Position numbers and translations under genes: made by a program. The notes under the pieces are model-generated. The model did not search any database and had not been told where the DNA came from. It saw only the letters and a list, made by a program, of their open reading frames with translations. This document shows positions 1-28,747 of a DNA stretch of 51,451 nucleotides, piece by piece (position 1 is the first letter of the stretch; every line of letters begins with the position of its first letter). The DNA comes from an uncultured Eubacteriales bacterium (GTDB lineage Bacteria; Bacillota; Clostridia; Lachnospirales; Lachnospiraceae), in assembly GCA_949299375.1 (NCBI GenBank), contig CASGAH010000005.1, positions 1 through 51,451 of the forward strand. The letters run 5' to 3'.

Positions 1-1814
1 ACCATCCACATAATGGCATCCAGTGTATTGTAGAGAAAATGTGGATTGATCTGCGCCTGAAGCGCCCGCAGTTCTGCTTTCTGAACATTGGCCTGCTCCT
101 TGCGGTTTCGTTCAATCAGAGCCTTGATATCGGTCAGCATGCGGTTATACTGTTTTTCTAGCACGGAGAATTCATTCTTGGACAACGGATGTGCAAGCGC
201 ATCCAGATTTCCGTCCGCAGCCATAAGCATGCAGTTTTTCAGGCGTTGAATAGGCCGCGTCATTCTTTTTGAAACGAAAATGTAAAGCGTGAAAGCCAGC
301 AGCAAAGCTGCTGCAATAACCATCAGCAACCATTCCAGTGTTTTGTAAAATTCGGACATCAACTCCTGCATAGGGGCATATCCAACGATATACCATCCCG
401 CCTTCGTCAGACGGCTAACCGCCACAAGATCCGGACCGATTTCTTCCATATAGGAATCCGACAGCGTTGTTCTCCCCGAGTAGCTAAAAATGCCTTCTGC
501 GATGCGTTGACTTTCATTCCCTGCGCCAAACAGGGGCATGCCGTGTGCGTCGGCAATAAAACAGGAGCCTCCTTCGCCAAGCGTTGCTCCCACAAGTACA
601 TCTTCGATCGCGTTGGTACGAAGTTCAATCGCCATATAGCCTAAAACGTTGCGAGTGGCTATTTGCAACACGGCGGTTCCAAGCAACAGGCACGGACCGG
701 TTTCTTCGCCATCAAGATAAATCAAGGTATCCGTTGCATTCACCACCGCATCAAAAATCGCCTTGGTACGCCCGTTTTCTTTAAGATAAAACAGGCCGGT
801 TCGTTCATTGTAACCATATCCGTCCGTATCGAAAAGATAAACGTTCTCAACTCCTTGGCCGATCATTCGACTATCCCGGAGATCCTGAAACGCCGCCACG
901 ACTGCGCTGGCCGTCGGCAGCTTCCCTGCACCCGGTCCGTAGAACATCAGATCCCCCATGACCGGCCCTCTCACAAGAATTCCGTTCATGACATCGCTGA
1001 CACTGTAAAGCGGATGGTCCTGTGCAATCATTGCGGGGCATACGACTGCCTCTGTCTTCTGGCCGTGCTGCCGGCACATTCCAAGCAGCTTGATGCTGCG
1101 GTTCATTGCGTTTGCGTATTCTATGTCTGTATGGCTGATGCTGCAGATTCCCTCCGTATGGATTGCCTCATAGGACACCTGTGACCCGAATGCAAGCGAG
1201 GCGAGGATGGCGATCTTTCGGCACGTGTCATACCCTTCGATGTCTGCGGAAGGGTTTCTCTCTGCATATCCGAGCTGCTGCGCCTCCCGAAGCACGTCGT
1301 CAAAATCCAGGTCGGTTCGCTCCATCCGCGTCAGCATATAGTTCGTCGTTCCATTGAGAATTCCTGTAATCTCACAAATCCGATCGGATGTCATGCACTG
1401 ATTCAGAGAGCGAATGATCGGAATGCCTCCGCCGACACTCGCCTCAAAGAGAAAGTTCACTCCATTTTCTGCCGCAATCGCCATCAGTTCCGCTCCATGC
1501 TGTGCCACCAGCTCCTTGTTGGAAGTTGCCACAGATTTTCCGGCTTCCAGACACGCCTTCACAAACGTGTAAGCGGGGCGAACCCCTCCCATCGTCTCAA
1601 CAACGACCTGAATTTCCGGGTCGTTCACAATGCTTTGATAATCTTTTACGATTTTATCTGCAAACGGGTCCCCTGGAAAATCTCTCAGGTCGAGTATCGA
1701 TTGAAGCACAATCTCCTCCCCCGCTTTCTGTCTGATGCACTCCCGATTGTTTTGCAAAACCCAGGCAACACCAGAACCGATGTTGCCATATCCCATAATA
1801 GCTGCTTTAACCAT
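1..1814 (-). CDS. Homoserine dehydrogenase fused to C-terminal part of a YesM-like sensor histidine kinase (3' end outside window)
   Basis: One reading frame stays open from the ATG at 1814 to base 1. Residues 1 to about 307 are a homoserine dehydrogenase: NAD motif GYGNIGSG at residues 8-15, NGTTN in the catalytic domain, and GAGKLPTASAVVA at about 295-307. In the family a final helix and usually a C-terminal ACT domain follow. Here the frame passes at about residue 308 into the second half of an extracellular dCache-like sensor domain (ending GWYIVGYAP), a membrane segment at about 490-511, a HAMP region from about 512, and the kinase motif QINPHFLYNTLD near 588-600. I checked the junction codon by codon and found no stop or shift. 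Hom makes homoserine for Thr/Met synthesis. The kinase part has lost its first membrane segment, so its topology is probably wrong for signalling. A genomic deletion or a chimeric assembly would both explain it. The neighbouring ACT-protein gene is the usual partner of hom. Confidence 0.85.
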   Translation of the reverse strand, partial: MVKAAIMGYGNIGSGVAWVLQNNRECIRQKAGEEIVLQSILDLRDFPGDPFADKIVKDYQSIVNDPEIQVVVETMGGVRPAYTFVKACLEAGKSVATSNKELVAQHGAELMAIAAENGVNFLFEASVGGGIPIIRSLNQCMTSDRICEITGILNGTTNYMLTRMERTDLDFDDVLREAQQLGYAERNPSADIEGYDTCRKIAILASLAFGSQVSYEAIHTEGICSISHTDIEYANAMNRSIKLLGMCRQHGQKTEAVVCPAMIAQDHPLYSVSDVMNGILVRGPVMGDLMFYGPGAGKLPTASAVVAAFQDLRDSRMIGQGVENVYLFDTDGYGYNERTGLFYLKENGRTKAIFDAVVNATDTLIYLDGEETGPCLLLGTAVLQIATRNVLGYMAIELRTNAIEDVLVGATLGEGGSCFIADAHGMPLFGAGNESQRIAEGIFSYSGRTTLSDSYMEEIGPDLVAVSRLTKAGWYIVGYAPMQELMSEFYKTLEWLLMVIAAALLLAFTLYIFVSKRMTRPIQRLKNCMLMAADGNLDALAHPLSKNEFSVLEKQYNRMLTDIKALIERNRKEQANVQKAELRALQAQINPHFLYNTLDAIMWM

Positions 1815-1930
1815 TTCGCCTCCATCTTACCCTATCTGTTCAAATTTTATTTCTGTCGGCCGCCTTAGAACCATTTGTCCGGGGCTTCCGCACATTTCTG
1901 GCAAATGTGTTCCGATCCGTTCCCAATCTC

Positions 1931-2392
1931 TCACCCGCTCTGTCGGATCGATTCCTCCCTTGACAGAATCTTCATATACTGGATTCCCTCCAGCGCTTCG
2001 ACACCGCCGATCATCTCCGCCACGCTTTCCGTATCGTCGGACACTTCAATGCTCAATGTGAGCATCGCCGTCCCATTTACCGGAATGCTCTGATGAATCG
2101 TCAAAATATTGGCACGGCACTGTGCAATCTTTTGCAGCACTCTGGATAACACGCCGCTCTCATCCGTCATCTGCAGCAGAAATGTAATGGTCTTGCCCCG
2201 GACGTTCTCGTAAAACGGGTGGATATCATCTTTATACTTGTAATAAGAGCTTCTGCTGATCCCTACACGCTCGACGGCATCGTTGATGGTCAGGACCTGC
2301 TCTGATTCCAGCAGCTTTCTGGCCTCTATCACTTTCAGAAGGACCTCTGGCACTGCTTTTTCTTTTATCAAATAGTATGTGTTTCGATCCAC
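1931..2392 (-). CDS. ACT domain-containing protein (UPF0735/PheB-like)
   Basis: A 153-residue protein with a short N-terminal helix-turn-helix-like segment (INDAVERVGISRSSYYKYKD) and a C-terminal ACT domain. This is the architecture of PheB/UPF0735 proteins, which lie beside hom in many Firmicutes and are thought to sense amino acids. I chose the GTG at 2392 because GGAGAG stands just before it and the product then has the family's usual length; an ATG at 2506 would add 38 residues without family resemblance. The gene lies 116 bp upstream of the hom part of the fusion, on the same strand, so both are probably co-transcribed. Since the hom portion has lost its own ACT domain, this may be the only ACT module left for the pathway here (inference). 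Confidence 0.85.
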   Translation of the reverse strand: MDRNTYYLIKEKAVPEVLLKVIEARKLLESEQVLTINDAVERVGISRSSYYKYKDDIHPFYENVRGKTITFLLQMTDESGVLSRVLQKIAQCRANILTIHQSIPVNGTAMLTLSIEVSDDTESVAEMIGGVEALEGIQYMKILSREESIRQSG

Positions 2393-2558
2393 TTTCTCTC
2401 CATCCTTTCTTCCGGGTAATCGGATCGGGAAAGATTCCTCTCCCGATCCGCCCGCGATGCTTTGCTCATCTTGCGGCATAAGCCGTTTGATGGCCGTATC
2501 GCGCAAAAAGGTAAGCGCAAACCAATGTTGTGGACTCTGGCCTGCACTTACCCTTTTG

Positions 2559-3687
2559 TTATTCTTCTTCTTTCCAGGCGCCGCCGGTATTGTGCCATTT
2601 CAAGTAGGCGTTCATATACAGATCTATGCCGCCGTCCAATACAGCGCTTGCGTTGCTGCTTTCCGCACCAGTTCTATGATCTTTTATCATCGTGTAAGGC
2701 TGCAGCACATAGGAACGGATCTGGTTTCCCCACGCAATGTCTTTTACTTCTCCCCGAATGTCGGATACTTTTTCTGCATTGGCCTGTTTTTTCAAAAGGA
2801 ACAGCTTGGCCTTTAACATTTGCATTGCTTTGTCTTTGTTCTGAAACTGGGAACGTTCATTCTGGCACTGCACGACAATGCCCGTCGGAATGTGTGTGAT
2901 GCGGACCGCGGAGGATGTTTTGTTGATGTGCTGTCCTCCTGCGCCGCTGGACCGATACGTGTCAATGCGCAGATCTTCCGGATTGATGTCAATGTCCAAG
3001 TCTTCCTCGATCTCCGGCATAACATCACAGGAGACAAACGATGTCTGTCGTTTTCCGGCCGCATTAAACGGTGAAATCCGCACAAGACGATGGACGCCAT
3101 GCTCCGACTTGAGATATCCATAGGCATTTTCTCCATTCACCTGAATGGTCACGGATTTGATGCCCGCCTCATCGCCTTCCAGATAGTCAAGGATTTCGTA
3201 CGTATATCCCTTGCGCTCCGCCCATCTCGTATACATCCGGTAGAGCATTCCCGCCCAGTCGCAGGATTCTGTTCCGCCCGCCCCGGCATTGAGACGAAGA
3301 ATCGCATTGTTGTGATCGTACGGCTCCGACAGGAGCGTCTGGATGGTCATCTGCTCCAGCATTTCTGAGAAATGCTGCATCGATTCCTGGATCTCCGGAA
3401 TCACTTCCGGATCGTTCTCCTCATATCCCATTTCCAGGAGAATCTGAATCTCCTCATACTCCTGCTCCATCGATTCATAGTTTTTGACTACATCCTGCAG
3501 GTTTTTTAGTTCCTTCATGATCTTCTGGGAGCGATCCGGATCGTCCCAGAATGTCGCTTCCTCCATATAACGGCTCAGCTCTTCGATTCGCTCACGTTTT
3601 GCCGCTAAGTTAAAGTGAATCCCTCAATTCGTATAATGGTCTTTCATAAGCAGAGAGTGTATATTTAAACTGATCCAACTCTACCAT
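2559..3687 (-). CDS. prfB: Peptide chain release factor 2, with +1 programmed frameshift
   Basis: RF2 is encoded in two frames. The zero frame starts with ATG at 3687 (AAGG ribosome site upstream) and runs 25 codons to a stop at 3612-3610. A +1 shift at CTT-TAA-C gives ...RDSLNLAAKRERIEE... and enters the main frame, which ends at 2559, for about 375 residues. The main frame has the RF2-type anticodon loop SPF (VRISPFNAAGKR) and the catalytic GGQ loop (GAGGQHINKT, near residue 250). An AGGG element lies just before the shift site, as in the E. coli autoregulatory signal. The in-frame stop is TAA instead of the usual TGA. The gene lies 33 bp behind secA, the common secA-prfB arrangement. Confidence 0.93.
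3606..3625 (-). promoter_or_regulatory. RF2 programmed +1 frameshift site with UAA stop
   Basis: On the minus strand the sequence reads GAGGGATTCACTTTAACTTA: a Shine-Dalgarno-like AGGG, five bases, then CTT TAA C. Moving +1 at CTT continues into the RF2 frame without interruption, and the residues on both sides fit the family. The canonical site is CTT TGA C, where RF2 itself competes with the shift. UAA can also be read by RF1. Confidence 0.85.
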
Positions 3688-3720
3688 AACCACACCTTCT
3701 TTCTTTGTTCTGTTTTTGTC

Positions 3721-6288
3721 TCATTGTTTCCTTCCGCAGCAATTCTTATACTTTTTGCCGGAACCGCACGGGCAGAGATCGTTTGGATAGATCTTCTTCT
3801 CGGAACGGCGCTTCGGCGCTCTGGCGACAGAGTCATCCTTGTTCGTTCCGGTAATCTTTGCCACCTGTTCTCTCTCTGGCGCAAGTACAAGTCTCGTGTG
3901 ATAGAGAATCCGAACGGTGTCTTCCTGGATGGAGGCGGTCATGTCGTCAAACATATCATATCCTGCCATCTTATACTCCACAAGCGGATCTCTCTGGCCA
4001 TATGCCTGCAGGCCAATTCCCTGGCGAAGCTGGTCCATGTCGTCAATGTGCTGCATCCACTTGGAATCAATGCATTTTAAAAGCGTATTGCGCTCGTGTT
4101 CCCGGAGCATTTCGATCTCCGGAAATTCTGCTTCTTTCCCCTCGTAAAGCTTGACTGCCTTTTCTTTCAGTTCCTGCTTGAGCTGGTTTTTCGTATACGT
4201 GCGCCCTTCTTCCAGCTCTACGCTTGGAAGCGGAATGATCGGCGTGAGAAGACCGCTCAGTTCGGCCATATCCCAGTGGCTCTGATCGTGTTCGTCGGAG
4301 ATGCAGTGGTCTACCGCGCCCTCCACAATGTCCTGGATGAACTTCATAATAACATCCCGCATGTTCTCTCCATCCAGCACTCTCATTCGCTCTTTATAGA
4401 TGATCTCGCGCTGCTCGTTCATGACTTCGTCATACTTCAGGAGGTTTTCACGAATGCCGTAGTGGTTGCTCTCCACCTTTTTCTGCGCCCGCTCAATGAC
4501 AGAAGACAGCGCCTTGTGTGTGATCTCCATCCCGTCCTCCACGCCCAGACGCTGGAACGTATTCATCAGACGTTCTGATCCGAAGAGGCGCATCAGATCA
4601 TCTTCCAGGGACAAATAAAAGCGGGACTCTCCCGGATCTCCCTGGCGTCCGGAACGCCCCCGAAGCTGATTGTCAATTCGTCTGGACTCATGGCGCTCTG
4701 TGCCGATGATCTTTAATCCGCCGGCGGCTCTCGCCTCCTCGTCCAGTTTAATGTCGGTGCCTCGTCCTGCCATATTGGTGGCAATGGTGACAGCCCCGTG
4801 AAGTCCGGCATCCGCTACGATCGCCGCCTCCATCTCATGAAACTTCGCATTCAATACATTGTGCCGGATTCCTCTCTTTTTCAGAAGTCCGCTGACTTCC
4901 TCCGACGCTTCAATGGTAATCGTTCCGACCAAAACCGGCTGTCCCTTTTTGTGGGATTCCTCCACCGCATCCACAACCGCGTTTAGTTTCTCCCGGCGCG
5001 TCTTATACACCGCATCTTCGTGGTCGATTCTCCGAACCGGGCGGTTGGTCGGAATCTCAATAACATCCATTCCGTAGATGTTGCGAAACTCCTTTTCTTC
5101 TGTGAGCGCGGTACCAGTCATACCGGCTTTTTTCTCAAACTTGTTGAAGAAATTCTGGAATGTAATCGTTGCCAGCGTCCGGCTCTCCCGTTTGACGTCA
5201 ACGCCTTCCTTTGCCTCTATGGCCTGATGAAGCCCGTCGGAATACCGCCTGCCCGGCATAATACGGCCTGTGAATTCATCTACAATCAGCACCTGATTGT
5301 CTTTTACAACATAGTCTTTGTCCCGGAACATCATATAGTTGGCTCTGAGCGCCAATATGATGTTGTGCTGAATTTCCAGATTCTCCGGGTCTGCCAGGTT
5401 TTCGATGTGGAATGCCTGCTCCACGGCGCGGACACCCTGTTCGGTGAGATGAACGTTCTTTTCTTTCTCATTGACAATGAAATCGCCCGTCTCTTCGATT
5501 TCTTCTCCCATGATCGCGTTCATCTTGGAAAATTCTCCGGAGGACTCTCCCTTTTCCAGCTGCTTTGCAATGATATCACATCTTTGATAGAGCGCAGTCG
5601 ATTTGCCGCTCTGGCCGGAAATGATCAGGGGCGTTCTCGCCTCATCGATCAGAACCGAGTCCACCTCGTCGATGATTGCATAGTGAAGTTTGCGAAGGAC
5701 CATCTGCTCCTTGTAGATCACCATGTTGTCGCGCAGATAGTCAAATCCCAGTTCGTTGTTGGTCACGTACGTAATGTCACAGCGATACGCTTCTCTTCTC
5801 TCATCGTTGGACATCGAGTTCAGCACAACGCCCACGCTCAGTCCGAGGAATTGATGGATTGCCCCCATCCACTCCGCATCTCGCTTTGCCAGATAGTCGT
5901 TTACCGTAACAATGTGAACACCCTCTCCTGTCAGCGCATTCAGATAAGCCGGGAGTGTCGCCACAAGCGTCTTTCCTTCTCCTGTCCGCATCTCTGCGAT
6001 TCGACCCTGGTGAAGAACAATTCCTCCCATCAGCTGAACGTCATAGTGTTCCATATTCAGCACCCGCCGTCCGGCTTCCCGAACAACTGCAAAAGCTTCT
6101 GGCAGCAATTCGTCCAGCGTCTCCCCTTTTTGGTAGCGCTCCCGGAATTCCGCCGTCTTGGCACGCAGCTCCTCATCCCTCATAGCCATCATTGCATCTC
6201 TGAGAGAATTGATCTTGTCCACAGTTGGCCGAATCATTTTCAATTCTCTTTCGCTGTGAGTTCCAAAGATTTTTTCAATCAAGTTCAT
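3721..6288 (-). CDS. secA: Preprotein translocase motor subunit SecA
   Basis: An 855-residue SecA, the ATPase that drives Sec-dependent export. Visible are the Walker A region [11 protein letters not shown] (about residue 100), the DEAD-like [16 protein letters not shown] (about 205), the helicase-like second ATPase domain ([25 protein letters not shown]) and the C-terminal zinc/SecB-binding tail [13 protein letters not shown]. The length is normal. The start MNLIEKIFG agrees with the family. A promoter lies at 6398-6426, and prfB follows 33 bp downstream on the same strand. The gene is complete with no irregularity. Confidence 0.98.
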
Positions 6289-20639: not shown

Positions 20640-21401
20640 ATGAGCTGCTGTGACCTGAAATTAGAAGATTACTTTACCCGTTTCCCCCATGTGTCCGTGG
20701 CGTTTTCCGGCGGTGCGGATTCGACGTATCTCTTGTATGCGGCCCGAACATACGCCAAAACGGTTCGCGCCTATTTTGTAGAATCGGCATTTCAGCCCCG
20801 GTTTGAGCGGGAAGATGCAAAGCGGCTGGCCAGACAGCTTGGAGTCGAGCTGCGAATCCTTCCCCTTGATCCGCTCTCCATCCCGGAAGTGGCAGGCAAT
20901 CTGCCGGACCGATGTTATCACTGCAAAAAAGCCATCTTTCAGGCGATCCTGCAAGCCGCAGCGGAAGACGGCTGCACCGTCCTTCTCGACGGGACGAACG
21001 CCTCGGACGATGCCAAAGAACGGCCGGGAATGCGCGCTCTGGAGGAACTTTCTGTCCGTTCCCCGCTTCGGGAGTGCGGACTTGAAAAATCACAGATTCG
21101 CCAGCTCTCTAAGCAGGCCGGACTGTTTACGTGGGACAAACCCGCCTACGCCTGTCTGGCAACCCGGATTGCCGCCGGGGAGGAAATCACGCCCGACAAA
21201 CTCTCGGCAGCGGAGGCGTCAGAAGAAGATCTGTTTTCCCTTGGATTTACGGATTTTCGCGTCCGCTCCCAAAACGGACACGCCCGCCTGGAACTTCCCC
21301 TCGCACAGTTTCCCCTGGCGCTAAAGCATCGGGAAGAAATTCTTCACAGGCTAAAAGCATATTATCAAACGGTATCTCTAAATTTGGAGGCAAGAAAATG
21401 A
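20640..21401 (+). CDS. larE: ATP-dependent sacrificial sulfur transferase LarE
   Basis: 253 residues of the PP-loop ATPase family. LarE adenylates the pyridinium dicarboxylate mononucleotide and donates sulfur from its own cysteine in building the nickel-pincer nucleotide (NPN) of lactate racemase-type enzymes. Seen: PP-loop SGGADSTYLLYAA (about 22-34), DRCYHCKKAIF (about 90) and the block KPAYACLATR holding the cysteine equivalent to the sacrificial Cys of Lactobacillus LarE. AGAAAGGAGC precedes the ATG. It overlaps larB by 4 bases (ATGA), so the two are translationally coupled. Confidence 0.93.
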   Translation: MSCCDLKLEDYFTRFPHVSVAFSGGADSTYLLYAARTYAKTVRAYFVESAFQPRFEREDAKRLARQLGVELRILPLDPLSIPEVAGNLPDRCYHCKKAIFQAILQAAAEDGCTVLLDGTNASDDAKERPGMRALEELSVRSPLRECGLEKSQIRQLSKQAGLFTWDKPAYACLATRIAAGEEITPDKLSAAEASEEDLFSLGFTDFRVRSQNGHARLELPLAQFPLALKHREEILHRLKAYYQTVSLNLEARK

Positions 21402-22183
21402 GCGATTCCCTGAATCATCTGTTAGAAAGTGTTAGAAATGGAACCGTTTCTGTGGAAGAAGCGGCATTGGAACTGAAAAAGAAGCCATTTGAGGACATCG
21501 GATATGCCAAAGTGGATCTGCACCGGAAGCTTCGTCAGGGCGCTGCCGAAGTCATTTACGGGGCCGGCAAGACGCCGGAGCAGATTGTCGGAATTGCCGA
21601 TGCGATGAAGCGAAACGGACAGACTGTCATCCTCATCACCCGCTTGTCCGAGGCGTCCGCCATGCAGATTCAAAAACAGCACCCGCTGCAATACTACAAA
21701 GACGCCCGGTGCGGCGTCATCGGGACAATCCCCGAGCCAGACGGGATTGGAACCATTGTCGTTGCCACCGGCGGGACAAGCGACATTCCTGTGGCGGAAG
21801 AGGCCGCAATCACCGCCTCAGTTCTTGGAAGCCGCGTCGTCCGCTTGTACGACGTCGGAGTTGCCGGACTGCACCGGACATTGGCTCATCTGGACGACCT
21901 GATGGGTGCGTCGGTCATCATTGCCGTCGCCGGGATGGAAGGTGCGCTTGCCAGCGTCATCGGAGGACTTGCCGACTGCCCGGTTATCGCGGTTCCCACA
22001 AGCGTCGGCTATGGGGCTTCCTTCGGCGGTCTTGCCGCATTGCTCTCTATGCTGAACTCCTGCGCAAGCGGGGTATCCGTTGTCAACATCGACAACGGGT
22101 TCGGCGCCGGATTTCTCGCCAACCGGATCAACCATCTCCACCGGAAGGCCGAAACCACTTGCGGATGCGAAACCAAACCGTAA
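21398..22183 (+). CDS. larB: Nickel-pincer cofactor biosynthesis protein LarB
   Basis: 261 residues. LarB carboxylates and hydrolyses nicotinic acid adenine dinucleotide, the first step of NPN synthesis. The C-terminal half is PurE/AIRC-like (VVATGGTSDIPVAEEAA; VAGMEGALASVIGGLADCPVIAVPTS), and the N-terminus carries the LarB-specific helical part. The start at 21398 is set by the overlap with larE and TTTGGAGG upstream. LarC (nickel insertion) and LarA do not follow. The last 56 bases overlap the convergent S26-protease gene. Confidence 0.93.
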   Translation: MSDSLNHLLESVRNGTVSVEEAALELKKKPFEDIGYAKVDLHRKLRQGAAEVIYGAGKTPEQIVGIADAMKRNGQTVILITRLSEASAMQIQKQHPLQYYKDARCGVIGTIPEPDGIGTIVVATGGTSDIPVAEEAAITASVLGSRVVRLYDVGVAGLHRTLAHLDDLMGASVIIAVAGMEGALASVIGGLADCPVIAVPTSVGYGASFGGLAALLSMLNSCASGVSVVNIDNGFGAGFLANRINHLHRKAETTCGCETKP

Positions 22184-22610
22184 ACAACGGCTTCCGAAAT
22201 GGAAACAGCTTCATCCAGAGATATGAGGCAAGTCTCCATTTCCATCCGGAACAGACAATCTCATTTCCTCTGTGCGTCAAACAGACCACCCGGGCGCGGA
22301 CACAGGAAATGGGAAATGTCCCGTCCCGGAAGAAATTCCCGTCCCCGGTCGTTTCTACTCCCTTTTTCGTAATCTTTGTCACCCGATGGAGCAGGTAATT
22401 TCCAAACGGGGTCTGCAATAAAATAATGTCCCCTGTCCGAAGATCCTCCCCGATACAGGATTCCACCGTCACCTGATCTCTTCCGTGGCACAAGAGCGGC
22501 CACATACTCATTCCCGTGACAGTAAAAGCAGCCTGCCGGTTCTGGGCAAGCTGCTCCATAATCAAAGGGAACAGGACCCGGGCTGGAATTTGCTTTCTTT
22601 CTCTCTCCAT
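22128..22610 (-). CDS. S24/S26 signal peptidase-like serine protease of the peptide cluster
   Basis: A 160-residue SipW-like peptidase. Candidate catalytic residues are Ser in VTGMSMWPLL, His in YLLHRVTKI and Asp in TTGDGNF. This Ser-His-Asp order is that of ER-type signal peptidases, not the Ser-Lys of type I. There is no clear N-terminal membrane segment. The C-terminus (RLASYLWMKLFPF...) is basic and amphipathic and may touch the membrane. I chose ATG 22610 (GGAGGG upstream; homology begins here), giving a 49-base overlap with the HprK-like gene. As last gene of the pqqD-rSAM-precursor-kinase run, it is the natural candidate for leader-peptide removal (inference). Confidence 0.75.
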   Translation of the reverse strand: MERERKQIPARVLFPLIMEQLAQNRQAAFTVTGMSMWPLLCHGRDQVTVESCIGEDLRTGDIILLQTPFGNYLLHRVTKITKKGVETTGDGNFFRDGTFPISCVRARVVCLTHRGNEIVCSGWKWRLASYLWMKLFPFRKPLFTVWFRIRKWFRPSGGDG

Positions 22611-23494
22611 TGCGGCAATCCCTCCAACGCTGTCTGAAGAATCTCTACCGATTCTGGATCCGGTCTGCACTTGAAACGGATCACCGGAATCTTCCGCAGC
22701 AATTCCTCCAGAATGTCCATTGCTTTTCCGCTCTGCCCGGCATCCCATGTAGGACAGAGAATATGGGGAAGAACCGCACCGAACGCCTGCAGCTGTTCCA
22801 CCCGGTATGCCTCATTTTTCTCCCCGCGCTCCAGCACAGCGATCGCTTTTATGGGAACGCTCCGGTTGATCTGTTCCCCGCTCGTCCCCGACCATGGCAA
22901 GCCATATCCGGTCCAGATCCCATCCGCCTTCCTGCACACAGCCCGGTCTCCGTTGAGAATCAGCGCATTCCGTTTGTCCCTCCACAGTCTCGCGTGCGTC
23001 GTCTTTCCGGTTCCAGATGGTGCACAGAGAATCACGCCTTTTCCCTCATACTCCATCAAAACGCCGTGGAGGGTGAGAATCCCCGAATCCAACATGCAGG
23101 CGGGGACAATGTGACATAAGTACTCAAAAGCCGTCTGTCCCCGGGTAGCACTGTGATCCTCCAGCAAAACAACCTCGCTCCTGTCACGGCTCACCCGGTA
23201 AGAAAGGAAAACCTCCCCATTCTTCTTTCGCACTGACCGCCAGAGCGTGCTGCCATCCGACAGCGCAGACACTTGGCGAAGGAAAAATCCTTCCTGAACC
23301 TCATACATTCTCTCCGAGACAGAAGGGAGCGCCTCCCCGAGGTCTCGATTTCGAAACCAGAGATCCGGCGCAGACGCCCGCGCAATGCGGTAGGGATCCA
23401 GCTTCCACTTCCAAAACTCCGAAAACTCCCCTCTCGCAAACCCGTCAAAAGAATATACGACTCCTGCAAAAAAGACTCTAAAAAAATCCGGCAT
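22562..23494 (-). CDS. HPr kinase/PEP carboxykinase-like kinase of the peptide cluster
   Basis: 310 residues. A Walker A loop CAPSGTGKTTHARLW lies at about residue 160, followed by NGDRAV and the block GLPWSGTSGEQINRSVP, as in HprK-like kinases found in RiPP clusters. Relatives in lasso peptide clusters (ThcoK/PadeK) phosphorylate the C-terminal serine of the precursor. The N-terminal 150 residues are not recognisable to me. The gene begins 3 bases after the precursor stop codon, whose last residue is serine. No HPr-type context (ptsH, hprK neighbours) is present, so a role on the peptide is more likely than on carbon control. Confidence 0.8.
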   Translation of the reverse strand: MPDFFRVFFAGVVYSFDGFARGEFSEFWKWKLDPYRIARASAPDLWFRNRDLGEALPSVSERMYEVQEGFFLRQVSALSDGSTLWRSVRKKNGEVFLSYRVSRDRSEVVLLEDHSATRGQTAFEYLCHIVPACMLDSGILTLHGVLMEYEGKGVILCAPSGTGKTTHARLWRDKRNALILNGDRAVCRKADGIWTGYGLPWSGTSGEQINRSVPIKAIAVLERGEKNEAYRVEQLQAFGAVLPHILCPTWDAGQSGKAMDILEELLRKIPVIRFKCRPDPESVEILQTALEGLPQWREKESKFQPGSCSL

Positions 23495-23497
23495 CTA

Positions 23498-23848
23498 TTA
23501 TGACCAGCTTGGGCTTGGATTGTCTGGAATTACGGTCGTGCCCTCTCCAGCATATGGGTTTCCAGATTCGCCTCCACTAGCTCTGAGTATGTTATCAAGG
23601 ATTTTTATCTGATCCTGTGTCGCATCGGTTCCACCTGGATGCTCATCCGAATAATACATCACATTAATTAAATTTAATGTACATGAGCCTTCCATAATCT
23701 GAAATGATACGTATCCTTCTCCCGGTATATCACAATATAAAAGATTGTCCGTCCCGTGATATCCCCAACAGGTATTTGCCACTGCCTCTTTGCTTCTCAG
23801 CTCTACAAATTCCATCGCTGGTTTTTCATATTTTATTTTTGTTTCCAT
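23498..23848 (-). CDS. Putative RiPP precursor peptide
   Basis: 116 residues starting at ATG 23848 behind AAGGAGG. The N-terminus METKIKYEKPAMEFVELRSK resembles leader peptides next to clostridial radical SAM/SPASM genes (KYEKP-x-ME-x-x-x-L). The rest is rich in Gly, Asn, Asp and Ser with three Cys (NTCWG, LYCDI, GSCTL), an aromatic MYY, and ends NPSPSWS with a terminal Ser. It overlaps the upstream radical SAM gene by 16 bases and is followed at 3 bases by the kinase gene. It is long for a RiPP precursor, so the leader/core border is unclear. That it is the substrate is inferred from position. Confidence 0.7.
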   Translation of the reverse strand: METKIKYEKPAMEFVELRSKEAVANTCWGYHGTDNLLYCDIPGEGYVSFQIMEGSCTLNLINVMYYSDEHPGGTDATQDQIKILDNILRASGGESGNPYAGEGTTVIPDNPSPSWS

Positions 23849-24945
23849 GTTTTTTTCCTCCTTAATAATTCCACAACTGCGGCAGTGTCTCTGCACACAT
23901 AATCCGGACATCCTCCAAGGTCGCCCGTCTCCGCGTATCTTGATGCACAGCAGACATTGCATATCGATTGATTGTCACAGCTTCTGCATTTCTCATTGGT
24001 CTGCGGAAGCTTCACTGATTTGGGGAAATCTTCCCACGCCTTTTCAAATCCTTTCCCGACGGCATCTTCCGAGAAGTTGTCCATCATCTGACATGCCAGC
24101 AATTTTCCGTCCCACGATATGGTGTAGTTCTGCATTCCTGCATTGCATCCAAACAAGGTAAGCCTTGGCTGGAAAACACTATCCCTGTTCTCCTCGCGGA
24201 TTTCCGCGTACAGATTTTTCTCATCGTATGATTCTCCAATGTATTTTTTAATGAGATTGATTCCGCGATGAAAGGCCAGTTCCACATTCTGTTTCGGATC
24301 CAGCCGACACGATTTGACATCCGTGCAGGCTCCGCGTACAGAGTTTGTCACAATCCTTGTCTGTATCAGCTTATATTGCTCACCAAATTCCTTTTTCACC
24401 AACTCACAAATGTTGTCAAAATCCGGATAGTTGTCCCGGATGATCGTCGTCCGAAACTCCATCTGAGACGGAAGATGCATGAGGCGGTGCATTCCATCCA
24501 CCGCTTTGTAGAATGCATTGGCATTTCCACATACTTTCTCGTAAGTATCCGGCGATGCCCCGTAAATGGTGACGCCAATCCGGTGCGGCGGATACTTTTG
24601 CAATGTCTCCATGACTTTGTCTGTCACAAGGGTTGCGTTGGTATAGAGTGTGAGAAGAAATCCTTTTTGATAGATACCCTCCCAGATTTCACAAAAATCC
24701 GGACGCAGCAGAGGCTCTCCCCCGGTCACAAGAAGGCTGATTGTTCCTGCCTTTGCCGCCTGGTCTGCCAGCTCCACCCACTGCTTCGCGGTCAACTCTC
24801 CCGCTGCAATCTCTGCATTTTCTGAATCATCGTGCCGAAAAAGACACATCTTACAGTGCAAATTGCAGCGAATGGTCAGTTCAAAAGTTCCATCTGTCGG
24901 ATATCGTTTTGGCATTTCCTGTATTACAATTGGTCTTTTATCCAT
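23833..24945 (-). CDS. Radical SAM/SPASM peptide maturase
   Basis: 370 residues. The radical SAM cluster motif CNLHCKMC is at about 28-35, GGEPLLRP in the SAM-binding region (about 75), and the C-terminal SPASM cysteines run from FGCNAGMQN through KCRSCDNQSICNVCCASR to GGCPDYVC, for auxiliary Fe-S clusters. Such enzymes install thioether, C-C or epimerised residues in ribosomal peptides. It is 14 bp behind the PqqD gene, the usual peptide-recognition partner, and overlaps the precursor start. The exact modification cannot be read from sequence. Confidence 0.9.
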   Translation of the reverse strand: MDKRPIVIQEMPKRYPTDGTFELTIRCNLHCKMCLFRHDDSENAEIAAGELTAKQWVELADQAAKAGTISLLVTGGEPLLRPDFCEIWEGIYQKGFLLTLYTNATLVTDKVMETLQKYPPHRIGVTIYGASPDTYEKVCGNANAFYKAVDGMHRLMHLPSQMEFRTTIIRDNYPDFDNICELVKKEFGEQYKLIQTRIVTNSVRGACTDVKSCRLDPKQNVELAFHRGINLIKKYIGESYDEKNLYAEIREENRDSVFQPRLTLFGCNAGMQNYTISWDGKLLACQMMDNFSEDAVGKGFEKAWEDFPKSVKLPQTNEKCRSCDNQSICNVCCASRYAETGDLGGCPDYVCRDTAAVVELLRRKKTWKQK

Positions 24946-24959
24946 AACAATCCAACTCC

Positions 24960-25259
24960 CTACTGCACCGTCACCATATCATGGCTTCCAAGCTCCTCCA
25001 AAAAGTCTGTTACATCCTGAACCGCCTGTTCCTGAGGAATGCCGTACTTCTCTTCCAAAAAACGCTCCAGCTCTGCGCGTGTGCTCGGCTTCGCCAAACG
25101 CTCCCAGAGTGCAGCTGCACTCTCATTCAACTGGATATACCCGTTGAAATTTGCAATGTTGGCGCCGATGGAAATCAATACGTCTGTATCTGCTATTTTC
25201 CGATGGATATAATTGCCTGATGTTTGATATTTCTGATCTGCCTGATCTTTCGCTGACAT
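24960..25259 (-). CDS. PqqD-family peptide recognition protein
   Basis: About 99 residues from ATG 25259 (MSAKDQADQ, preceded by GGGGGTG); in-frame starts at 25298 and 25280 are possible. The region ANFNGYIQLNESAAALWERL and FLEEKYGIPQEQAVQDVTDFLEEL is a PqqD/RRE winged-helix domain, which binds precursor leaders and presents them to the SAM enzyme. First gene of the five-gene operon. A possible promoter is TTGTAA - 17 - TTTAAA on the minus strand at about 25342-25370. Confidence 0.88.
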   Translation of the reverse strand: MSAKDQADQKYQTSGNYIHRKIADTDVLISIGANIANFNGYIQLNESAAALWERLAKPSTRAELERFLEEKYGIPQEQAVQDVTDFLEELGSHDMVTVQ

Positions 25260-25503
25260 AAACACCCCCACTCTTTTCATGAAACGTTGTGCTTCCATAC
25301 CTGTTTCAAAACCTACACTTTATGAAACTGGGAGTTTTTAAACGTAAATTACATAAATTTTACAAGAAGTGTGAAAAAAGGCTTGCTTTTTTGCGGGGAA
25401 TGATTTACAATTAGAGATGTACCCTTTGGGTCATATAGTGTATTATTTGAGAGGCGAGATCATTCGGATTGAAATTGCAGCACTTGATTTTGATCAAACC
25501 GAC

Positions 25504-25792: not shown

Positions 25793-26125
25793 TTACCGGA
25801 CCAATTTCCCTTCAAAATACTGCTCTTGAAAAGAAATGGCTTGCAATATTTCATCATCAGAATAGTCGGAACCATTCAGCGATACGATCCATTTATCTTC
25901 CACATCTTTGAAACGACGATATACAGCAATTACTTTCCCCTCAAATGATTGTATTGGTTCGTTTGTACCAAATACATAAACATCTTGTGGCTCCCCATCA
26001 CCCGCGGCAAAACCGTCCGCATACCCATAATTTATCGGATAAATCATATCCGGGTATCGCGGATGATGGCTTCCAATTGGCCGATCTATTTTCCCACTGA
26101 CTCTTTTCCCAATTACATCTCGCAT
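25793..26125 (-). CDS. Short inorganic pyrophosphatase-like protein
   Basis: 110 residues of a clostridial family annotated as inorganic pyrophosphatase. DRPIGSHHPRYPDMIYPINYGY and DGEPQDVYVFG carry the Ppa-like Asp/Tyr pattern, but the protein is about 60 residues shorter than bacterial Ppa, so pyrophosphatase activity is not assured. I chose ATG 26125 after GGAGAAAAGG; the start at 26182 adds a basic tail not seen in the family. Confidence 0.75.
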   Translation of the reverse strand: MRDVIGKRVSGKIDRPIGSHHPRYPDMIYPINYGYADGFAAGDGEPQDVYVFGTNEPIQSFEGKVIAVYRRFKDVEDKWIVSLNGSDYSDDEILQAISFQEQYFEGKLVR

Positions 26126-26318
26126 GACCTTTTCTCCTGCAAAAACTTCTCCACACGTTCTATCCACTTTTTTCGCTCGCATCTGTATTCTAACATAAAG
26201 TCCCTAAAATGGATAGAAGAAAATTACTTCCCCGATCCGATCTCGCGATTTTCGCATCGCTCGATCATAACTCCTCGCTGTCCGTTGCCCGCCAGATGTC
26301 TGCCCATGCAAGGGACAG

Positions 26319-26429: not shown

Positions 26430-28430
26430 TCAAAGTTTTTTTACAAACAAGGCGCGGATGGCATTGAGAACGGCAATGATCATCACTCCTACGTCAGCGA
26501 ACACGGCAAGCCACATGTTGGCCAATCCGAGTGCTACCAGAATCAGGCACACGAGCTTGATGCCGATTGCGATTACGATGTTCTGATAAACAATTCTCAG
26601 ACATTTGCGGCTAATCTTGATGGCCTTTGATATCTGCATCGGATCATCATCCATGAGGACAATGTCTGCCGCCTCGATGGCAGCGTCCGATCCCATTGCT
26701 CCCATCGCAATGCCGATGTCAGCACGCCGAAGAACCGGTGCATCGTTGATGCCATCCCCTACGAAGGCCAGTTTCGCCCGGGACGGTTTGATCGTTAAAA
26801 GTTCCTCGACTTTTTCAACTTTGTCCGCCGGCAGCAGCTCACTGTAGACATGGTCGAATCCGAGCGCCTGTCCGACATGATCTGCCACTTTTTTGGCATC
26901 TCCGGTGAGCATAACAGTTCTGTGAACACCTGCCGCTTTCAATGCCTCAATCGCCTGTTTGGAGCGGGGTTTGATCACATCCGAGATCACGATATGTCCG
27001 GCATATTCCCCTCCCACTGCCATATGTATGATCGTTCCCACTGCATGGCAGCTGTGATACGGGATTCCAAGATGATCCATCAGCTTATCGTTTCCGGCTG
27101 CAACTTCCATTCCGTCTACCATCGCAATTACGCCATTTCCGCTGATCTCTTGTATGTCTGTCACCCGGCTGCGGTCAATCTCTTTGCCGTGTGCCCGCTG
27201 AAGGCTCTTGCTGATGGGATGGCTGGAAGCGCTCTCCGCCAAGGCAGCATATTCGATCAGCCGTTCTTTTGTGTAGGGGCTGTGATGCACGCCATTGACT
27301 TCAAACACACCCTGCGTCAGCGTTCCTGTCTTGTCAAAGACGACAACTCTTGTCTGGGACAGTGTTTCCAGATAGTTGGAACCCTTCACAAGTACACCCG
27401 CTTTGCTGGCACCGCCGATACCCGCAAAGAAGGACAGGGGGATGGAAATGACAAGTGCACAGGGGCAGCTTGCGACAAGAAACGTCAGCGCGCGGTATAC
27501 CCATGTCTCCCATCCGGCGTCCAGATCCAGAAAAATCACCCGGGCAAGAGGCGGCAGAACCGCAAGCGCCAGTGCGGCATAGCAGACCGCCGGAGTATAA
27601 ATTTTAGCAAAACGGGAAATGAAATCTTCCGATTTCGATTTGCGGGAAGAGGCGTTCTCCACGAGATCCAAAATCTTTGAGACGGTAGATTCGCCAAACT
27701 CCTTTGTCGTCTGAATGTGCAGCAGGCCGGTCATGTTGATGCAGCCGCTGACGATCGAATCTCCCACTGCCACTTCGCGGGGCAGACTCTCGCCGGTCAG
27801 GGCGGCCGTGTTCAGCGTGGAAGCTCCCTCCACCACCGTTCCGTCAATCGGGACTTTTTCACCGGGCTGCACGACAATGATAGAACCAATTCCCACTTCG
27901 TCGGGATCAACCTGCTCCAATTTGCCTTCCACTTCAATGTTGGCGTAATCCGGGCGAATATCCATCAAATCACTGATGTTGCGGCGGCTCTTTCCGACTG
28001 CATAGCTCTGAAACCATTCGCCAACCTGGTAGAACAGCATAACCGCAATGGCCTCCAGATAATCTCCATTCTCATACACCGCCAGGGCAAGCGCGCCAAG
28101 CGTGGCAACTGCCATCAAAAAATTCTCGTCAAACACGCGGCCGTTGCGAATTCCCTTGAACGCTTTGCGCAAAATGTCATATCCGATCACCAGATAGTCC
28201 ACCAGGAAAACCGCCAGCCGTACAAAGCGTCCGGCTGGTCCGAACACATCAAACGCTTCTGCGCCAAGAACCTGCAGTACAAGCAGCAGCGCCGCAGCAG
28301 CCAAAATACGCCACAACATCACCTTTTGCTTTCTGGTCATGCCAGCGGAAGGCCGTAAGCCAATGATCTGGAGAATCACAGCCAAAAGCGCCACCGCAAT
28401 CAGCAAGCCGTTTACGATATACTCCTGCAT
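26430..28430 (-). CDS. P1B-type heavy metal ATPase (zinc/cadmium/cobalt exporter type)
   Basis: 666 residues. The metal-binding membrane motif ASCPCALVIS (CPC), phosphorylation site DKTGTLTQG, HP motif SASSHPIS and GDGINDAPVL are all present. There is no N-terminal HMA domain: the protein starts directly in the first membrane segments. A separate HMA protein is encoded just upstream (28479-28697). CPC with this layout fits CadA/ZntA-type divalent-cation efflux. It is the second gene behind a consensus promoter with a palindromic operator. Confidence 0.93.
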   Translation of the reverse strand: MQEYIVNGLLIAVALLAVILQIIGLRPSAGMTRKQKVMLWRILAAAALLLVLQVLGAEAFDVFGPAGRFVRLAVFLVDYLVIGYDILRKAFKGIRNGRVFDENFLMAVATLGALALAVYENGDYLEAIAVMLFYQVGEWFQSYAVGKSRRNISDLMDIRPDYANIEVEGKLEQVDPDEVGIGSIIVVQPGEKVPIDGTVVEGASTLNTAALTGESLPREVAVGDSIVSGCINMTGLLHIQTTKEFGESTVSKILDLVENASSRKSKSEDFISRFAKIYTPAVCYAALALAVLPPLARVIFLDLDAGWETWVYRALTFLVASCPCALVISIPLSFFAGIGGASKAGVLVKGSNYLETLSQTRVVVFDKTGTLTQGVFEVNGVHHSPYTKERLIEYAALAESASSHPISKSLQRAHGKEIDRSRVTDIQEISGNGVIAMVDGMEVAAGNDKLMDHLGIPYHSCHAVGTIIHMAVGGEYAGHIVISDVIKPRSKQAIEALKAAGVHRTVMLTGDAKKVADHVGQALGFDHVYSELLPADKVEKVEELLTIKPSRAKLAFVGDGINDAPVLRRADIGIAMGAMGSDAAIEAADIVLMDDDPMQISKAIKISRKCLRIVYQNIVIAIGIKLVCLILVALGLANMWLAVFADVGVMIIAVLNAIRALFVKKL

Positions 28431-28478
28431 TTCAATAACCTCTCTTTGCTTCGTTCTGCCTTTCCCGTCAGACTCCTC

Positions 28479-28697
28479 TTACAGGAAAATTTCACAGTCA
28501 GGCTCCACCTTCTTGCAGGCTTTGCGCACATTTTGCATTACTTTCTTCGGATCCTGTCCCTCTTCGAATTCCACATTCATCTTAAGGGTCATGAAATTCA
28601 CCGTCGCACCTGCCACACCCGAAACTTTGCGGGCGGCATCTTCCATCAGGTTGGCGCAGATGGCACAGTCTACATCGATTTTGTACGTTTTCTTCAT
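28479..28697 (-). CDS. Stand-alone heavy metal-associated (HMA) domain protein
   Basis: 72 residues from ATG 28697 (GGAG ribosome site). A single ferredoxin-like HMA domain with metal site VDCAICANLME (C-x-x-C), and a final Cys near the C-terminus (EPDCEIFL). It probably delivers metal to, or regulates, the adjacent ATPase, which lacks its own HMA domain. Replacement of the usual GMTC by VDCAIC is notable. Confidence 0.85.
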   Translation of the reverse strand: MKKTYKIDVDCAICANLMEDAARKVSGVAGATVNFMTLKMNVEFEEGQDPKKVMQNVRKACKKVEPDCEIFL

Positions 28698-28731
28698 TTC
28701 GAAAATCTCCTCTCTCTTCTTTTTCAAACGA

Positions 28732-28747
28732 TTAAACAATTGTTTAA
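28732..28747. promoter_or_regulatory. Palindromic operator TTAAACAATTGTTTAA
   Basis: A perfect 16-bp palindrome starts about 4 bases after the predicted transcription start of the metal ATPase operon. Such AT-rich palindromes after strong promoters are typical of ArsR/SmtB-type metal repressors. No repressor gene is in the window. Confidence 0.6.

Follow-up and report, generated by a model that had tools for sequence, protein, structure and literature searches.

A five-gene operon from a Lachnospiraceae bacterium predicted to combine radical SAM chemistry with phosphorylation of a C-terminal serine

We analyzed a window of DNA (i.e., the entire stretch under consideration, 51,451 nt of contig CASGAH010000005.1 in assembly GCA_949299375.1, from an uncultured, gut-type Eubacteriales bacterium of the Lachnospiraceae) containing an operon of five tightly packed genes on the minus strand. 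These code, in order, for a PqqD-type recognition element, a SPASM-type radical S-adenosylmethionine (SAM) enzyme, a precursor peptide, an HprK-like kinase and a SipW-like S26 peptidase. On balance, we favor the view, based on sequence comparisons and analogy to characterized pathways, that the operon makes a ribosomally synthesized and post-translationally modified peptide (RiPP) combining radical SAM chemistry with C-terminal phosphorylation. Two types of RiPP modification would thus be joined in a single compact operon.

The operon and its conservation

The first gene (24960..25298, minus strand like all operon features below) codes for a discrete RiPP recognition element (RRE) of 112 aa, a predicted leader-binding protein, and is separated by 14 bp from that for the 370 aa radical SAM/SPASM peptide maturase (23833..24945). 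The latter overlaps by 16 bp with the gene for the 116 aa precursor (23498..23848), which is followed after 3 bp by the gene for the 310 aa HprK-like peptide kinase (22562..23494). This in turn overlaps by 49 bp with the gene for the SipW-like S26 leader peptidase (22128..22610), which we read as 160 aa from Met47 of a longer frame (the Met at 22610; an earlier in-frame ATG lies at 22748). The strand, gaps and overlaps agree with a preliminary description of this DNA; the interval that it assigned to the operon (22128-25370) contains all five genes, but its top end (25299-25370) lies upstream of the PqqD start.

Two Pfam models passed their cut-offs, PqqD (E 6e-15) and Radical_SAM (3e-21), and three remained under them, namely SPASM (0.04), the HPr kinase C-terminal domain (0.04) and Peptidase_S24 (0.02). 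Also under cut-off were the archaeal-type signal peptidase I model TIGR02228 against the peptidase (E 2.3e-9) and the HPr kinase/phosphatase model TIGR00679 against the kinase (15.4 of 240 bits); the precursor had no match in Pfam or NCBIfam. Despite these scores, the alignments support the SPASM, kinase and S26 assignments: a CxxxCxxC motif and six C-terminal cysteines are invariant across 22 aligned radical SAM sequences, as are His143, the P-loop Lys164 and Asp183 across 23 kinases, and Ser81, His121 and Asp136 across 17 peptidases.

With the radical SAM protein as query against genome contigs, we recovered, among 80 loci retained out of 101, 14 close relatives of the operon (L008-L020 and L026 in our numbering) in 13 other genomes (L011 and L016 belong to the same metagenome-assembled genome, MAG), with 49-69% identity in the radical SAM enzyme. 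Their hosts include Lachnospiraceae, Ruminococcus turbiniformis (L009, the cultured strain CLA-AA-H200), Blautia, Anaerofilum, Christensenellaceae, Onthomonas, Fusicatenibacter and other Clostridia. The PqqD, radical SAM and kinase genes occur together in all 14 loci, and the S26 gene in 13, the contig of L016 ending about 90 bp past the kinase; in L014 the gene order differs, with S26 placed ahead of the kinase. Homologs of the precursor were detected by tblastn in 13 of the 14 loci, and that of L013, interrupted by a run of N, was recognized by eye. An orphan or chance precursor is thereby rejected; the preliminary description had held that lack of such a gene beside the enzymes in other genomes would speak against the pathway, and this lack was not observed. 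Judged from these sequences, the five genes are a real unit, beyond chance, and the gene families, alignments and conserved precursor together support the RiPP pathway proposed there, in which an RRE and a SPASM enzyme are joined by an HprK-like kinase and a leader protease dedicated to the precursor.

We regard it as most improbable that the operon is a degenerate or non-expressed relic in the window genome. Promoter- and terminator-like sites near it are not above the level of shuffled sequences, an exporter was not found nearby, and breaks occur in L008, L011 and L026; against this, the five window frames are open and closely coupled, and they have the residues that are invariant in the relatives. 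The frame breaks in the MAG sequences, at L008:1967-2326 (precursor leader region) and L026:5995-7121 (radical SAM gene), may reflect assembly error or decay, and L011:8308-10002 holds a truncated and an intact S26 gene with a repeat-bearing ORF (..LTGLRIGKLTVL..CDCG..) in between.

The C-terminal serine and the kinase

In 13 aligned precursors the residues Y7, P10, A24, C27, G43, G45, C56, G101 and S116 are invariant, the last of these being the C-terminal residue in the window (23501..23503); the L016 precursor extends one residue beyond it. We curated precursors by hand from stretches fetched around most kinase matches and compared their last residues. Serine ends 35 of the 40 precursors from clusters with a radical SAM enzyme, a kinase and a [YW]xxP leader (hereinafter group A), all 12 from lasso clusters, which served as positive control, and none of the 32 from other cluster types. 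The last comprise clusters with a radical SAM enzyme and a shorter kinase but no [YW]xxP leader (0/8), those with a radical SAM enzyme and no kinase (0/3), and those with a kinase but no detected radical SAM enzyme (0/21; hereinafter group D). Across 38 group-A precursors, the entropy at position -1 is 0.81 bits versus 2.8-3.7 bits at -2 to -10, and serine makes up 7.4% of core residues. The pattern recurs in core subfamilies unjoined by BLASTP, six of nine of which end in serine in all or all but one of their members.

The 40 precursors of group A include L008, with its frame break in the leader region, and L013, which has an internal run of N and whose end was deduced; both were left out of the 38. 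L003 and L207 are the same locus and were counted once, and L120, L122, L123 and L124, with no complete precursor, were left uncounted. Group D is partial: the [YW]xxP filter retrieved no precursor from most clusters free of radical SAM enzymes, some of those it did retrieve are 2-4 kb away from the kinase, and lack of a radical SAM enzyme means no match at 1e-15 with our A2 profile. The lasso clusters were found through the lasso RRE family, and one of them (L232) has no kinase in the fetched stretch.

The lasso kinases PadeK, ThcoK, SyanK and PsmK phosphorylate the C-terminal serine of their precursors (PMC9266682). Given this precedent and the distribution of terminal serines, the kinase of the window probably phosphorylates Ser116, as PadeK does with its own substrate. 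Several observations weigh against this assignment. Five group-A precursors end otherwise (L016 ..WSL, L235 ..GST, L207 ..SGL, L186 ..SPF and L209 ..SSC), and the eight short-kinase clusters have both a radical SAM enzyme and a kinase but no serine end, such that a tie of the terminal serine to any kinase plus radical SAM enzyme is not upheld. Further, the groups were made by hand after the pattern had been noticed and the sequences are related; hence, the Fisher value cannot be read as a probability. Finally, the Asp-Asp motif of the lasso kinases is Gly-Asp in the window clade, its first Asp being replaced, and kinase activity is therefore not assured. For these reasons we put Ser116 no higher than the probable target.

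The Gly-Asp pair, along with the sub-threshold HPr kinase models of Pfam and NCBIfam, also bears on whether the protein is a kinase at all. Its AlphaFold model (predicted local distance difference test, pLDDT, 92) has as best matches in the PDB phosphoenolpyruvate carboxykinase (PEPCK) and then HprK (Foldseek E 4e-7 to 1e-6), with TM-scores that are low throughout (0.23-0.62). A homolog whose H-K-x-D site transfers or removes some other group, or that acts only as a scaffold, could present these features; however, we deem it quite unlikely in view of the invariant His143, Lys164 and Asp183 and of the retention of the gene in every close locus. Within the order, a kinase profile detected relatives in 71 of 392 genomes (E <= 1e-15), with at most six candidates scored in each, and a tree built from 126 kinases spreads the radical SAM clusters with Ser-ending precursors over several clades and sets the lasso kinases apart.

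The survey also brought up clusters of other kinds. The short-kinase loci (L125, L183-L185, L187 and L189-L191) combine a PqqD, a radical SAM enzyme, an ORF of 121-136 aa lacking [YW]xxP (Gly-rich by eye) and a short HprK-like kinase, and appear to be a further RiPP-like type. At L145, L149, L166, L172, L176, L177, L197, L204 and L208, precursors with leaders of the type E[GS][VI][YF]xxSG lie within a few kb of large HprK-like kinases (381-520 aa); there, S26-like genes are mostly divergent from the kinase, and radical SAM enzymes of the window subfamily were not found. In L024 (from about 7130 on) and L025 (from about 2455 on), radical SAM-kinase clusters with upstream precursors ending in FTS are followed by a gene for a large protein that, judged by eye, looks secreted and may be a glycosidase.

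Leader, core and genomic setting

The leader of the window precursor carries the motif YEKP (residues 7-10; 23819..23830), which equals the motif bound by the RREs of lasso peptides and of the linear polyphosphorylated peptides (LPPs), RiPPs described in 2026 (PMC13381572). With the Tyr/Trp of [YW]xxP taken as position 0 in 38 group-A precursors (L008 and L013 left out), where this motif is present in 38/38 by construction of the search, position +16 is V, I or L in all 38 and position +17 is Ala in 34 (Phe in three and Ser in one). The first cysteine follows at +19 or +20 in 34, or in 35 if the +20 Cys of L227, which has another at +1, is counted. Ala or Thr at +17 is common in group D too, with 12 of 19 precursors once the two LPP-type peptides (L227 and L235) are set aside. 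LppS, a SipW homolog, cleaves the LPP leader after a Thr with help from the RRE (PMC13381572). The conserved spacing, taken together with this precedent, suggests that the S26 peptidase of the window probably cuts after Ala24 (A24/N25, 23774..23779), giving a leader of residues 1-24 and a core of residues 25-116. The match between enzyme and site is imperfect: Ala stands at +17 in seven group-A loci having no S26 gene in the fetched stretch (L024, L025, L118, L121, L126, L180 and L188), and Phe in three that have one (L207, L227 and L235). With both kinds of exception present, a strict tie between S26 and Ala at +17 is not upheld.

The predicted cut bears on which serine the kinase would reach. 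LppK, the LPP kinase, acts on Ser3 and does not accept the S3T variant (PMC13381572), and BsfK likewise acts on Ser3 (PMC10368454). By analogy, the operon could encode a pathway of the LPP kind whose kinase targets a position close to the N terminus created by cleavage, with the terminal serine serving, for example, radical SAM recognition or export. S26 peptidase, kinase and RRE do make up the LPP set, and the LPP-like relatives L127, L227 and L235 have a Ser at +18/+19, near the position of the first core Cys in group A. Yet the first serine in the window core is residue 48, 24 residues past the predicted cut, and the nearby Thr26 is variable, in addition to being of the residue type that LppK does not accept; moreover, terminal serines are wanting in group D and universal in the lasso clusters. 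We thus hold targeting of the N-terminal region to be unlikely, and retain Ser116 as the favored site.

As potential sites for the radical SAM enzyme, Cys27 and Cys56 come into consideration: of the three cysteines in the window precursor these two are invariant in the 13 sequences and the third is not kept. The preliminary description had set the low cysteine number against a Cys-rich pattern; the count of three stands, but low content does not by itself exclude cysteine chemistry. Family models do not predict the chemistry of the enzyme, the 25 NCBIfam matches listed (of 69) all being under cut-off, and its sequence relatives in the PDB are SkfB (the best), 'Radical SAM' 5v1q and PqqE. We suggest Cys27 and/or Cys56 only tentatively, as the best candidate sites. 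The enzyme is regularly linked to the kinase: in the 392 genomes of the order, 25 of 30 matches to its subfamily, read by hand, have a kinase match within about 5 kb, three (L238-L240) have no kinase neighbor, and two others lie on short contigs (scored on the best six candidates per genome for the kinase and the best four for the radical SAM enzyme).

The precursor could instead be a small folded protein with a beta-beta-beta-alpha core that acts as a protein with only one or two modifications, in place of a small natural product. The AlphaFold model places strands at 37-41, 45-51 and 60-66 and a helix at 78-92, with block-mean pLDDT of 71-89 over residues 31-90, and the 92-residue length of the core and the invariant G43 and G45 agree with such a fold. 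On the other side, the overall pLDDT of 66 and predicted template modeling score of 0.56 come from an alignment of 13 sequences, and no match in the PDB was better than E 0.38. While we consider this rather unlikely, it is compatible with the radical-modified, C-terminally phosphorylated product that we favor.

From the gene set, its conservation, the leader spacing, the terminal serines and the enzyme motifs and folds, all of which the analysis shows, we predict the following chemistry. The PqqD-type RRE would bind YEKP, as known for lasso and LPP RREs, and present the precursor to the enzymes; the SPASM enzyme might modify the core, most likely at one or both of the invariant cysteines, and the kinase would (poly)phosphorylate Ser116. 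The S26 peptidase would cut 17 residues beyond the RRE-binding Tyr, freeing the 92-residue core, and export could, speculatively, proceed via an ABC transporter encoded elsewhere, possibly that on contig C10 of the same genome, beside another kinase/RRE cluster.

Against this pathway, the operon encodes no exporter, and the window has no match to three such proteins (ABC_membrane + ABC_tran) from related clusters. The absence of a transporter noted in the preliminary description therefore holds for the operon, but not for its kin, as 14 of 34 related loci have an exporter match (partial in L018 and L178), and so does the contig C10 cluster. Of 12 ABC matches in the window genome, that on contig C10 is by far the best (41%, 1.6e-153; next 7e-54) and stands after a kinase and a PqqD gene. 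This second cluster (L249, G000:C10:1-14000, 137-4848) comprises a radical SAM fragment near the contig start, an HprK-like kinase, a 478-aa protein, PqqD and the ABC exporter; a precursor was not recognized in it. A third kinase/RRE locus (L120, G000:C116:1-3078) reaches the contig end and has a WEEP leader (..NEYVAAC..). With YEKP in the window and WEEP in L120, leaders of the YxxP and the WxxP type apparently coexist in this genome, the setting in which discrimination by RREs was proposed. In L018, a WERP and a YEKP cluster lie side by side.

The operon is sporadic in its distribution. At E <= 1e-60, the radical SAM enzyme occurs in just 2 of 200 genomes of the host family, the window genome among them, and sharing across the family is hence not upheld. 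All three genomes of the genus carry a version; those of the other two are about 40-55% identical, and their cores are quite unlike that of the window. Eight flank proteins of the window were compared with the loci of these relatives, L212 and L178, and none matched, which suggests that the copies there sit at a different site, the flanks available being only a few kb. In a comparison of flanks across 18 loci (the window, L008-L023 and L026), an ABC transporter recurs in six (L018-L023), and no other family in more than three; P-type ATPases lie near the window operon and in L009 and L026 but are just 24-32% identical. This pattern fits a cassette of five genes that spreads horizontally. At 1e-20 the radical SAM enzyme had no relatives among phages, and a plasmid search gave three weak kinase matches. 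The operon is flanked in the window by genes at 20640-22183 (plus strand) that match PP-loop-type and AIRC-domain models, which we take to be LarE/LarB-like, and by genes for a P-type ATPase and an HMA-domain protein at 26430-28739 (minus strand); a weak pyrophosphatase match lies at 25793-26182.

Comparison with known systems

The closest likeness is to the LPPs, typified by the lpp cluster of Paenibacillus alginolyticus, which has an RRE, the SipW-like LppS, the HprK-like LppK, an NTP transferase and a transporter (PMC13381572). Shared with the window operon are the discrete RRE, the YxxP leader, the SipW-like peptidase with Ser-His-Asp, the HprK-like kinase and the patchy spread. The window operon differs in adding a SPASM radical SAM enzyme and the conserved C-terminal serine, and its leader has the YxxP of the LPP motif YxxPxVLxHQxIxFETxxS but not its FETxxS. 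Near the place of the phosphorylated Ser3 of the LPPs it has a cysteine, with Cys27 being core residue 3 if the cut falls after Ala24. Unlike the lpp cluster with its NTP transferase and MsbA-like transporter, it has no extra gene packed into it, as read from gene content, no NTP-transferase model having been applied to the window. Because the LPPs have been published, the kinase-protease part is not new, and the same holds for its association with the RRE; it is the added radical SAM enzyme that is new with respect to the main text of that paper, where 'radical SAM', 'rSAM' and 'SPASM' are absent.

With lasso peptides of the paeninodin type (PadeK, ThcoK and PsmK; PMC9266682), the operon shares an RRE, an HprK-like kinase and a conserved C-terminal serine. 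It differs in having a YxxP rather than a WxxP leader, a radical SAM enzyme and an S26 peptidase, and Gly-Asp in place of Asp-Asp in the kinase; a macrolactam cyclase and B2 protease are not among the five genes, the rest of the window being unscanned for them. The SynChlorMet models yield detectable matches far under their cut-offs, ScmC to the kinase (34.6 of 125) and ScmE to the radical SAM enzyme (100.6 of 400).

Sactipeptide and ranthipeptide maturases such as SkfB and the PapB family are likewise SPASM-type radical SAM enzymes acting on peptides, with SkfB being the best sequence relative in the PDB; the mark of their products is a Cys thioether to an alpha or a beta/gamma carbon. Against them stand a PapB score of 64 of 340 bits, a core with two conserved cysteines that is not Cys-rich, and the presence of a kinase. 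Another S26-type enzyme, the maturation protease of Ni-type superoxide dismutase, takes a short leader off a single partner protein, but its model (TIGR02754) gives the window peptidase only 19 of 63 bits. The broad description of a radical SAM/SPASM RiPP applies, with SPASM enzyme, RRE and conserved precursor found together (the Pfam SPASM match being under cut-off).

Thus, each modification step is known singly, and it is their combination that looks new. We met no description of a RiPP combining radical SAM and HprK enzymes in the open-access papers searched, subscription papers being outside their scope. The single paper among them that names both HprK and radical SAM concerns a Pelobacter genome, and none on SynChlorMet came up. 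A new product class, as floated in the preliminary description, is possible from the sequences. We are evenly divided over the more general proposal of a RiPP class in which one RRE passes the precursor on to a radical SAM enzyme, to a kinase for the C-terminal Ser and to a leader protease resembling signal peptidase, giving a radical-modified phosphopeptide or small protein. The proposal includes a Clostridia-wide rule by which an HprK-like kinase from the radical-SAM-linked clades would signal a RiPP precursor ending in Ser. If true, a rule for the target site (the last residue) and one for the cut (Ala at +17) would allow many cryptic clusters to be parsed and expressed, given how common the kinase family is in the order, and the LPP finding of 2026 would be extended to radical SAM systems. 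Set against its nearest counterparts, the operon is probably LPP-like in its processing and paeninodin-like in its probable site of phosphorylation, with radical chemistry added, and departs from the defining features of each.

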